Positions 28,661-32,028 of a stretch of DNA of 64,000 nt are shown here, in pieces. The stretch is from Thalassospira profundimaris (lineage in GTDB: Bacteria; Pseudomonadota; Alphaproteobacteria; Rhodospirillales; Thalassospiraceae). Numbering within the stretch: the stretch's first letter is position 1; each line of letters starts with the position of its first letter. The notes under the pieces were generated by a model. That model did not search any database. It saw only the letters and a program-made list of their open reading frames with translations, and was not told the DNA's origin. The stretch is from positions 186,001-250,000 of the forward strand of contig NZ_JPWI01000005.1 in assembly GCF_003326795.1 (NCBI RefSeq). Direction: 5' to 3'. The position numbers and the translations under genes are program-made.

Positions 28661-28682
28661 ACTGCCTTTCCCGGGGCAGTTG

Positions 28683-28712
28683 ATGGCGGCATGTCATTTG
28701 ATATGCCGCCAT
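28683..28712 (+). terminator. Terminator of fpr
   Basis: ATGGCGGCAT and ATGCCGCCAT pair perfectly around a 10-nt loop, followed by TTTTT. It lies 22 bp after the fpr stop. Confidence 0.85.
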
Positions 28713-28754
28713 TTTTTTGTGGTTGGCTCTGTTTTCGCCAATAGGTTGCAATGA

Positions 28755-28774
28755 TCCTCCTCAAATGAGGATAG
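28755..28774. promoter_or_regulatory. Motif upstream of the chemoreceptor gene, shared with its paralogue
   Basis: A 20-bp block containing the dyad TCCTC-AAAT-GAGGA. It ends 92 bp before the chemoreceptor start. 18 of its 20 bases recur at 30488-30507, upstream of the paralogue. It is a candidate binding site for a shared regulator. Confidence 0.5.
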
Positions 28775-28866: not shown

Positions 28867-30357
28867 ATGGGATCTTTTGGTTTTTTCCGGCGTGGCGACA
28901 CTGCGACCGCTGCAAGTACGCTTGATGCACTGGAACAGTCGCTGGCCGTTATCGAATTCGACTTGCAGGGCAAGGTGCTGCGTGCAAACAAGAATTTTTT
29001 GACAATTATGGAATATGAGTTGTCAGAGATCGTCGGCAAGCCGCATGCAATCTTTGTCCCCGACGACATCCGCCGAAGCCCGGATTACGAGACCTTTTGG
29101 TCCGATCTGCGGGCGGGCTCATTCAAAAGTGCAGCATTCCCGAGGATCACAAAGACAGGTCGCCAAGTATGGATCGAGGCAACCTACAATCCGGTGCGCG
29201 ACCGCAAGGGCAACGTCGTCAAGATTGTCAAATTTGCTTCCGACATTACCAAGCGTCAGGAGATGCTGGCCAATTTCGAAGGCAAGGTAACCGCCATTAA
29301 CCGCAGTCAGGCAGTGATTGAGTTTGACCTTGATGGCAAAATCCTTGATGCAAACGACAATTTCTTGTCGGTGATGGGGTACCAGCTTTCGGAGATTGTC
29401 GGAAAACATCACAGCATGTTTGTGGATCCAGATTATGCGAAAAGTCTGGATTACACTGAATTTTGGCGCGAACTGCGCAGGGGGAATTTCTCCTCGCAGC
29501 AGTTCAAGCGTTTTGCCAAGGGCGGCAAGGAGATCTGGATTGAAGGATCCTATAACCCGATCTTTGATGCCAATGGCGTGCCCTATAAGGTTGTTAAATA
29601 TGCTGTGGATATTACCGAACAGGTCAAGCTTCTGACGGATCTTAAGAAGATGATCGACAGCAACTTTGGTGAAATTGATCTGAGCTTGAAAGAACTGGAT
29701 CAGCGTTCCTCGATTGCCTATTCGAGCTGTGAAGAAACGTCGGCGAACGTTCAGGCTGTTGCCGCCGGTGCCGAACAGCTTGCGGCATCAATTGCCGAAA
29801 TTTCGCGCAGCATGGCCGGGGCAAGAGCATCAACCGATCAGGTGTTTGAAAAGTCGATTGCTGCGGGCACATCGACAGAGAAAATGAATGAAGTCGTGAC
29901 AGCTATGAGCAGTATCATTGATGTCATTCAGGGAATTGCAGGGCAGATCAATTTGCTGGCGTTGAATGCGACGATTGAATCGGCCCGTGCAGGCGAAGCA
30001 GGCAAAGGCTTTGCTGTTGTTGCGACAGAGGTCAAGAACCTTGCCAATCAGGTTGCCAGGGCGACTGAACAGATTACGGGTGAGATCGAAGGTGTTCAGA
30101 GCATTGCCGGTGAGGTCAGCGGTGTGCTGGGCTCGATCCGGACGGAAGTAGAAGATGTGCTAAATAACGTGACGACGATTTCTTCTGCGGTGGAGGAACA
30201 AAGTTCCGTAACCCAGCAGGTGTCGAGCAACATGCAAAGTATGGCAAGTTCTGTTGAACAGTTCGCAAGTAGCGTGGACTTTATCCGGGATGCTTCTTCG
30301 ACAGTTCTGGTAAATGTCAGTCGAACCCGTGAGGCTGCATTGGTCCTTGCGCGTTAA
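28867..30357 (+). CDS. Soluble methyl-accepting chemotaxis protein with two PAS domains
   Basis: A 496-residue chemoreceptor without membrane spans, so probably cytoplasmic. PAS 1 covers about residues 18-130 ('[39 protein letters not shown]') and PAS 2 about 140-255. The signalling domain has the hairpin tip '[33 protein letters not shown]', which contacts CheA and CheW. It ends [11 protein letters not shown]. No heme or FAD motif is proved, but Aer-like redox sensing is plausible. The next gene is a paralogue that lacks the tip. Confidence 0.92.
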
Positions 30358-30409
30358 GCGAATTCGACGGCGTGGCCGAAAAGAAGATTGTTCCCAGAAC
30401 GATCGATTA

Positions 30410-30443
30410 AAAGAGGCATGGCATATAATCGCCATGCCTCTTT
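30410..30443 (+). terminator. Terminator after the chemoreceptor gene
   Basis: AAAGAGGCATGGC and GCCATGCCTCTTT are perfect 13-bp arms with an 8-nt loop, followed by GTTTTAG. This separates the two PAS genes into different transcription units. Confidence 0.85.
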
Positions 30444-30487
30444 GTTTTAGGGCTCCAGGGTTTTGCATCCTATACGAGTGTATTATG

Positions 30488-30507
30488 TCCTCCCCATATG
30501 AGGATAG
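30488..30507. promoter_or_regulatory. Motif upstream of the PAS paralogue
   Basis: It matches 18 of 20 bases of the block at 28755-28774 and keeps the GAGGATAG half. It ends 80 bp before the start codon. The dyad reads TCCCC-ATAT-GAGGA, so one arm is imperfect here. Confidence 0.5.
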
Positions 30508-30587
30508 TGGGGACGCGATCCCGGTGATATATTCACGATAACGAATATGTTTAGCGTTGCGCCAGGCAACAATCCGGGAGAGCCGTC

Positions 30588-31943
30588 ATGAATTCCGTTG
30601 CTTCGTCTATCGGGCAAGATCGCAATGATCTGTCATATGACCTGCATGCTGCTGTTGATGTGTCATTCGCCGTGGCTGAATTTGACCTGAATGGCAGGAT
30701 CATCAGGGTCAATGAGCGATTTCTGGCGATGACCGGATATGACGAAAGCGAAGTTGTCGGGCAACATCATTCCATGTTCCTGCCTGCCGAGGTGGTCAAC
30801 GGACCGGACTATGATCTGTGCTGGATCGAGTTGCGCGCCGGAAAGAGCAAGCGGGTTGTTCTGCCCTGTGTGACCAAACAGGGTGATCTTATCTGGGTCG
30901 AGGAGACCTATGGCCCGATACGTGATTGCAAGGGAGCGGTAAGCGCAATCATGCGGCTTGGTGTTGATGTCACCGAACGTCATGAAAAGCTTATTGACCT
31001 GCAGGGCAAGGTCGATGCGATTGAGCATAGCCATGCGGTGGTCGAGTTCGATGTGAAAGGCAATATTCTGACGGCCAATCACCATTTCCTTTCGATCATG
31101 GGATATGAACTTGCAGAAATTGTCGGCCTGCATCACAGCATGTTTGTCGAACCCGATTATGCTCAAAGTGCCGACTACCGCGCATTCTGGCGATCTCTTG
31201 CCAACGGAAAATACAGCGCCCGGCAATTCAGACGGGTCGGAAAGGACGGTGACGAGGTCTGGTTTGAGGCAACCTATAACCCGGTCTTTGCCCCGGATGG
31301 CACGGTTCGTAAAATTGTCAAATTTGCTGTCGATATCACGGGCGAAGTCCATTCGCTGGGTGATTTGAAAACGACCCTTGATTCAAGCTTCATTGATATT
31401 GACCGCAGTTTGTGCAAGTTCGATCAGAATTACGAAAGGGTCGCCAAGGCATGTCGTCTGGCACAGGTTCATCTTGAAGCCAGCAGCATGATCGCCGGAC
31501 GGTTGGTGTCATGCGTTGAGGAAAGCGCCCAACGGATGACGGAATTGCAATCTGTGGCCGATCATGTTTTCGATACGGTGATCGAAGGCGATGTTGCCGC
31601 CGTCGCGATGGAAAATGCACTGGATGCGGTGCGTGACGGCGCAAGGGGCACGCCCGAACTCAAGGCACGGATCGACAATCTTGATGAATGCGTCAGCGAG
31701 AATGTGCGCATATTGACCGCCCTGCGTCTGGACATGAAAGCGATGCTGGACCGTGTGGCCGTTGTCTCGGTGGCCGTCGAGAAGCAAGGCGATGTCATAT
31801 CGCAGGTCACCAGCGAGATGCATGGTGTTCAGACGTCGCTTGCGACATCGCAAGGGTTGCTTTCGGGATTGCAGATGGTGTCGGAAGAAATGGTGGTGGC
31901 GGTCGGTCGCACGCGCGAGGCATCGGTAGTTTTGGCGCGCTAA
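30588..31943 (+). CDS. Two-PAS protein, chemoreceptor paralogue lacking the signalling tip
   Basis: A 451-residue protein with two PAS domains at about residues 22-130 and 140-255, similar to those of the preceding gene ('AVVEFDVKGNILTANHHFLSIMGYELAEIVGLHHSMFVEPDYAQSADYRAFW'). The regions after PAS 2 and at the C-terminus (VGRTREASVVLAR) also match the neighbour. Between them the conserved CheA/CheW-binding hairpin is missing and the part is about 45 residues shorter. It is intact, so it probably has a new role, such as a sensor or modulator. Automatic tools may call it only a PAS protein. Confidence 0.85.
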   Translation: MNSVASSIGQDRNDLSYDLHAAVDVSFAVAEFDLNGRIIRVNERFLAMTGYDESEVVGQHHSMFLPAEVVNGPDYDLCWIELRAGKSKRVVLPCVTKQGDLIWVEETYGPIRDCKGAVSAIMRLGVDVTERHEKLIDLQGKVDAIEHSHAVVEFDVKGNILTANHHFLSIMGYELAEIVGLHHSMFVEPDYAQSADYRAFWRSLANGKYSARQFRRVGKDGDEVWFEATYNPVFAPDGTVRKIVKFAVDITGEVHSLGDLKTTLDSSFIDIDRSLCKFDQNYERVAKACRLAQVHLEASSMIAGRLVSCVEESAQRMTELQSVADHVFDTVIEGDVAAVAMENALDAVRDGARGTPELKARIDNLDECVSENVRILTALRLDMKAMLDRVAVVSVAVEKQGDVISQVTSEMHGVQTSLATSQGLLSGLQMVSEEMVVAVGRTREASVVLAR

Positions 31944-31971
31944 TCTGTAAAAAGATAGCGCGGCACGAGCG

Positions 31972-31998
31972 GGGACAGGCATCTTTGGTGCCTGTCCC
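31972..31998 (+). terminator. Terminator after the PAS paralogue
   Basis: GGGACAGGCA and TGCCTGTCCC pair around a 7-nt loop, followed by TCTGTTTTTT. It lies 28 bp after the stop. Confidence 0.85.
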
Positions 31999-32028
31999 TC
32001 TGTTTTTTGGGGGGAACAGGTTCCGCGA

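Follow-up and report, generated by a model that had tools for sequence, protein, structure and literature searches.

Beside the gene of a soluble chemoreceptor (P1), Thalassospira profundimaris carries a paralogue, P2, from which the hairpin tip that binds CheA and CheW is missing. P2 is real, selected and so far seen only in Thalassospira. Both genes lie on the + strand of the window, the whole stretch of 64,000 nucleotides that was analysed. Our best reading, a tentative one, is that P2 is a neofunctionalised sensor, no longer part of the CheA array, which passes on its signal by touching another protein directly, broadly as BdlA does. The features of the locus are as follows.

28682 to 28713, + strand: terminator-like hairpin before P1 (z -6.0)
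28758 to 28773, + strand: palindrome TCCTCAAATGAGGATA, about 110 bp upstream of P1
28867 to 30357, + strand: P1, soluble PAS-PAS-MCP chemoreceptor with intact hairpin tip (496 aa, MCPsignal 109.5 bits)
29908 to 30045, + strand: P1 segment without P2 counterpart, residues 348-393, containing the tip (best ungapped split)
30410 to 30443, + strand: terminator-like hairpin in the gap from P1 to P2 (-23.7 kcal/mol, z -7.2)
30491 to 30506, + strand: palindrome TCCCCATATGAGGATA, about 100 bp upstream of P2
30588 to 31943, + strand: P2, PAS-PAS protein of 451 aa whose chemoreceptor hairpin is shortened and tip-less
30663 to 30986, + strand: PAS1 of P2, residues about 26-133 (Pfam, PDB matches, AlphaFold)
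31035 to 31346, + strand: PAS2 of P2, residues about 150-253 (Pfam, PDB matches, Foldseek)
31338 to 31640, + strand: predicted descending helix of P2, residues 251-351 (AlphaFold model, periodicity)
31641 to 31655, + strand: predicted new hairpin turn of P2, residues 352-356 (AlphaFold; symmetric-deletion expectation 355)
31656 to 31937, + strand: predicted ascending helix of P2, residues 357-450, with the P1-like end RTREASVVLAR (AlphaFold, BLASTP)
31971 to 31999, + strand: terminator-like hairpin after P2 (scan and z calculation)

BLASTP aligned P1 and P2 with 177/476 identities (37%, E 3e-119) over PAS1, PAS2, the post-PAS helix and the C-terminal end, and the large gaps fell in the hairpin. 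This bears out the first-pass annotation, which had described two PAS domains, a matching post-PAS helix and a like C-terminal end in both proteins. Pfam gave PAS family matches in two stretches of each. MCPsignal was detected in P1 with 109.5 bits and was not detected in P2 at E≤1. Both are small proteins and a membrane part was not evident in either.

The best ungapped split of the alignment placed the part absent from P2 at residues 348-393 of P1, 46 residues with the whole CheA/CheW-binding tip inside; neighbouring splits score within 1-2 units. That P2 lacks the conserved hairpin tip, as had been annotated, is confirmed by these missing residues and by the absent MCPsignal match. The annotated shortening of about 45 residues is correct for the difference in length, whereas the missing segment itself is 46 residues, because P2 has one extra residue before the gap. 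In MCPs generally no other part is as well conserved as the tip, and without it contact with CheA/CheW and the formation of trimers of dimers are not expected of an MCP-type protein. The loss in P2 extends past the tip to the usual methylation motifs. A strict methylation-type motif was found in 18 of 20 P1 rows versus 0 of 13 P2 rows; the two P1 exceptions are G018 and G020, whose incomplete row the position filter does not judge fairly. A relaxed pattern was found in one of the 13 P2 rows (G005). Thus P2 shows neither mark of an MCP signalling domain, MCPsignal with its tip or the methylation motifs, and P1 shows MCPsignal.

The AlphaFold model of P2, a monomer with a mean pLDDT of 85 and a pTM of 0.41 at which the placement of the domains is uncertain, has two PAS folds followed by helices 251-351 and 357-450, joined by a turn at 352-356. 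Had the deletion preserved the pairing of the arms, the turn would be expected at residue 355; the model thus predicts that the shorter hairpin turns where a register-keeping deletion would place the turn. As P1 rows were present in the input alignment, this match is a consistency check and not independent proof. Both arms showed a 3.5-residue periodicity (0 and 9 of 2000 shuffles were as strong), and together with the model this describes P2 as a long antiparallel hairpin with heptad periodicity. Arm for arm, the P1 and P2 hairpins would differ in length by about 23 residues. According to Alexander and Zhulin, the length classes of MCPs reportedly differ by symmetric heptad insertions or deletions, with the tip constant. 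The deletion in P2 is consistent with this in that the arms stay in register, but in P2 the tip is the missing part. The PDB sequence matches of P2 stopped short of the tip-bearing tail, and full-length Aer (31cj) matched by its PAS only. No MCP hairpin was found among the Foldseek PDB matches listed (50 of 1644), all of which were PAS proteins.

The best PDB sequence relatives of PAS2 of P2 were 3ewk (MmoS, E 1.2e-10) and then 8dik (Aer PAS, E 2.8e-6), which we take to represent flavin-binding redox sensor families; for PAS1 the best matches were phototropin chains. Judged by its nearest solved relatives, P2 therefore belongs by sequence match with the FAD/Aer-like PAS proteins. Among the columns invariant in both P1 and P2 are two asparagines and four tryptophans within the PAS domains, residues that presumably touch flavin. 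The second PAS domain of P2 resembles those of flavin redox sensors in sequence, and flavin binding itself is putative.

P2 was present in 13 of 29 Thalassospira genomes. Its frame, annotated as intact in the window and found open there, is also open in all 13 carriers and encodes 450 or 451 aa in 12 of them. In the 28 genomes with the whole locus (in G014 it ends at a contig edge) we found both genes in 10, P2 alone in 3, P1 alone in 10 and neither in 5. The mapped loci have the same order, a reductase-like gene, the receptor or receptors, and then four opposite-strand genes that to us look like CsaA, phasin, TetR and ProC. The three genomes with P2 and without P1 at the locus (G002, G015 and G005) have intact P2 frames, and no further P2 match was found in G002 and G015 at E≤1e-60. 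In a tree of five flanking proteins, all 13 P2 carriers fell within a group of 17 genomes on a branch with support 100; four of these 17 lack P2, and none of the 11 genomes on the other side has it. The near-sisters G005 (L092) and G006 (L093) carry, at the same locus, P2 only versus P1 only. P1 of G020 is broken by a run of N and was excluded from trees and rates.

A P2 that stood alone in most genomes, or was decayed in relatives, would have spoken against the first-pass annotation. P1 and P2 adjoin in 10 of the 13 P2 genomes, and P2 stands alone in 3 and is broken in 0, so that neither case applies. The constant company of a neighbouring MCP, as for CetB, was not found, since P1 is absent from the locus in 3 of the 13, and obligate pairing is therefore unlikely.

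To compare selection on the two proteins, omega was calculated for the PAS half and the tail. In 11 P2 pairs (PAS dS under 0.6, G005 left out) it ranged over 0.096-0.151 for the PAS half and over 0.092-0.216 for the tail. The tail of P1 gave 0.022-0.053 in 16 pairs, taken from those with PAS dS up to 1.2 and having for each half a defined dS under about 1.3. The tail of P2 is relaxed about fourfold versus a working MCP, yet is far from neutral, and P2 is a selected gene and not a decaying one. As it is kept by selection without the part that contacts CheA/CheW, it probably signals to something else. In the 12 short P2s the tail is exactly 190 residues long without a gap, and 40 of the 190 columns are invariant. 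Over nine of the genomes that have both genes, mean pairwise identity was 0.97 for the P1 tip and 0.71 for the new turn of P2. The other P2 parts gave 0.79 (descending arm 301-326), 0.88 (PAS-PAS linker), 0.75 (PAS2) and 0.57 (post-PAS helix), and so the descending arm at 301-326, not the turn, is the best-kept stretch of the tail. In the G023/G026 pair, synonymous divergence of P1 (L085 and L086) was 0.97 in the PAS half versus 0.26 in the coiled-coil half, and that of P2 was 0.28 and 0.14. The sharp difference within P1 suggests recombination within the locus.

We built a tree of the PAS regions of the P1s, the P2s and an outgroup of seven related PAS receptors. P2 formed one clade (100/100), and P1 and P2 were one group against the outgroup (99/98). 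P2 joined the P1s of the P2-carrying clade at weak support (67/73), and a tree in which all P1 were constrained together was not rejected (p 0.234), so the exact branching point of the duplication could lie in several places. From these groupings, the duplication behind P2 took place inside the genus or shortly before the genus radiated. The single P2 clade and the upstream palindrome common to both genes agree with the annotated duplication and loss of the CheA/CheW tip, and the palindrome came along with the duplication.

G005 branched first within P2 in the PAS-region tree, and the other 12 grouped at 99/98. Between the hairpin anchor motifs, the P2 of G005 has 116 residues, versus 113 in P1 and 67 in P2. 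The tip consensus was not found in this full-length hairpin, which AlphaFold predicted as a single long one turning at 376-382, with low confidence around the turn. The whole G005 hairpin is clearly related to P1 (0 of 1000 shuffles scored as high). Its distal segment showed a weak likeness to four P1 tips (21-31 of 1000 shuffles scored as high), and a periodicity of its distal arms was not clear (88 and 223 of 2000 shuffles). In a tree of shared tail columns, G005 grouped with nine other P2s at support 72 and was not deepest. The G005 form, with its full-length hairpin and erased tip, is likely an intermediate, and the simplest order is that the tip sequence was lost first and the excision came later. 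Given the tail tree, the weak tip likeness, the poor periodicity and the single genome on which this form rests, its standing as an intermediate falls short of proof. Of all results, the solitary P2s and the G005 form do most to alter how the locus was first read.

The hairpin between P1 and P2 was not picked up by the scan that listed the other two terminator-like hairpins. With this hairpin between them, each gene is probably transcribed alone. The palindrome TCCYCAWATGRGGATR precedes all 13 P2 starts, at a distance of 79-101 bp, and 14 of the 18 P1 starts that were read (G017 and G020 excluded), at 105-111 bp, and the P1s of G001, G010, G019 and G021 have variants of it by eye. Per Thalassospira genome it had 0-7 matches, with at least one in 27 of 29 genomes, and the reversed-control palindrome had no match in the 29. 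When one mismatch was allowed, six places were found in the genome of the window, two of which lie before P1 and before P2. The palindrome was also found before a receiver protein gene followed by receiver-HDOD, before a receiver-EAL gene followed by a PAS hybrid kinase, and between the likely starts, chosen by hand, of a receiver protein and a receiver-EAL. This last receiver protein has what we take to be a LuxR-like end; Pfam matched its receiver only. Places in this genome include C1:511385, C1:516655 and C33:76913 (L129, L125 and L126). The sixth place overlaps the end of a gene we presume to be UreG-like and was taken as chance. In other genomes a subset of 29 of the sites found was examined, and most of these lie by P1 or P2, by receiver-HDOD or genes next to it, by receiver-EAL or by MCP-like frames. 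Five of them (L142, L146, L149, L150 and L160) matched none of eleven query proteins, so the list of palindrome targets is incomplete. Across Thalassospira this rare palindrome marks a small set of signalling genes: the two PAS receptors, receivers, receiver-HDOD, receiver-EAL and hybrid kinase. P1 and P2 are thereby grouped with c-di-GMP-type genes, and we take this as no more than a hint.

The receiver-EAL protein of C33 was found in 5 of 29 genomes, all five with P2, and 8 of the 13 P2 genomes had no match at E≤1e-80; this co-occurrence is explainable by relatedness. Receiver-HDOD had matches in 26 of 29 genomes at E≤1e-60, 23 of them at 46% identity or more, and the remaining three were paralogues at 33-35% identity. 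Neither co-occurrence yields a clear partner for P2.

Relatives of the P2 tail were searched for beyond the genus. In the order sample, the tail profile A1 matched 14 of 199 genomes, each of them a Thalassospira (E≤1e-12, scoring up to 16 candidates in a genome), and in the class sample 1 of 385, the genome of the window (E≤1e-14, at most 8 candidates per genome). The P2-tail family search gave members from Thalassospira only. Within the samples searched, the tail is so far seen only in this genus. A search with P2 as query gave 29 loci, a set that is no census: two from Thalassospira, 18 that were read (L054-L071) and nine weak ones that were left out (L072-L080). All 18 that were read encode the tip, 15 by pattern, L068 in the correct frame, and L056 and L061 from translation, and tip loss was not found among them. 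L056:1491-3491 and L061:4857-6905, both from Methylobacterium, encode three-PAS MCPs with the tip ARAGAAGRGF, in which alanine replaces the central glutamate; their C-terminal end looks PilZ-like to us. The genome of the window has about 39 chemoreceptor-type frames in 4.7 Mb, with 39 of 40 MCPsignal matches over the curated cut-off. At the level of titles and abstract openings, the literature searched gave no description of a tip-less chemoreceptor.

AerC of Azospirillum brasilense has a layout with two PAS domains. It is described as a soluble FAD-binding chemotaxis receptor of an alphaproteobacterium that works in aerotaxis (PMC6406031). By this description AerC is a probable counterpart of P1, and differs from P2, which is not expected to reach CheA. 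BdlA of Pseudomonas aeruginosa, a PAS-PAS-TarH protein of biofilm dispersion, is reported to act not in taxis but by oligomerising with the phosphodiesterases DipA and RbdA (PMC4047105, PMC8694187, PMC7930318), and as outlined there is a precedent for a PAS-PAS receptor that acts in this way (PMC4047105). By their descriptions, BdlA and its relative HM1275 of Shewanella vesiculosa resemble P2 in that a chemoreceptor-type domain follows two Aer-like PAS domains, for which FAD is predicted. The same descriptions set BdlA apart by its TarH domain and its activation by cleavage between the PAS domains, whereas P2 is without the tip. The link of this type that we observed is the palindrome common to P2 and receiver-EAL genes.

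The first-pass annotation had offered three functions for P2: a decoy, a partner in mixed dimers, or a sensor with a new output. The new output, still a candidate, fits best, and an obligate mixed dimer is weakened by the three solitary P2s and by the difference of about 23 residues per arm. That P2 modulates P1, by mixed dimers with one tip or by blocking P1 dimerisation through the PAS domains and post-PAS helices, is rather unlikely as its function. The two genes adjoin in 10 of 13 P2 genomes, share the palindrome (13 of 13 P2, most P1), and encode matching PAS domains, post-PAS helix and C-terminal end. The cytoplasmic PAS proteins CetB and CetC of Campylobacter jejuni, encoded beside a separate MCP gene, are likewise reported to share the MCP partner CetA (PMC3558505). 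As described, CetB acts with the membrane MCP CetA, whereas P2, a paralogue of the whole receptor in which the hairpin is shortened, also occurs without P1. A terminator separates P1 and P2, the near-sisters G005 and G006 keep only one gene each, and P2 is intact in the three genomes without P1. Mixed dimers with P1 cannot be its only role, and are possible where both genes exist.

Somewhat less probable is that P2 is a sink or decoy that binds flavin, another signal or a regulator without an output of its own. The raised omega of its tail (0.09-0.22 versus 0.022-0.053 in P1) and the new turn, which is no peak of conservation, would suit a sink, but a pure sink would not need the constraint seen in the gapless 190-residue tail, with its 40 invariant columns, and in the 3.5-residue periodicity of both arms. 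We consider it improbable that P2 is a receptor which was inactivated recently and is now being lost: it is absent from 4 of 17 genomes of its clade and evolves faster than P1, but no frame is broken in 13, omega is well below 1 in both halves and the palindrome is kept in all 13. An assembly or frame artefact, in favour of which nothing was found, can practically be dismissed, since 12 genomes have the frame open over 450 or 451 aa.

For the neofunctionalised sensor that we favour, the following course may be proposed. P2 would have arisen within Thalassospira as a duplicate of P1 or a P1-like gene, promoter region included. The tip sequence would have eroded first, through a G005-like state, and a deletion of about 46 residues would then have removed the tip, both helix arms staying in register. 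P2 would fold as a dimeric bundle beneath two FAD-type PAS domains, could neither join CheA/CheW arrays nor be adapted by methylation, and may relay a redox or energy signal when its shortened hairpin touches a non-CheA partner, as BdlA does with phosphodiesterases. Candidate partners are encoded by the genes that the palindrome marks, for receiver, receiver-HDOD, receiver-EAL or hybrid-kinase proteins, and the partner is the least certain step of this explanation. A more specific claim, which we regard as possible and rate below the favoured reading, is that a chemoreceptor lineage was converted by tip erasure and then excision into a stand-alone sensor whose shortened four-helix bundle directly controls another signalling protein, with a living intermediate in one species.

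If true, this would be an experiment of nature that shows the departure of an MCP from the array. In P1 the tip is the best-conserved part, at an identity of 0.97, and a selected paralogue without exactly that part suggests that the PAS-plus-bundle half is useful without CheA. P1, P2 and the G005-like form, as small proteins without an evident membrane part, make array-free signalling by such a bundle directly testable.
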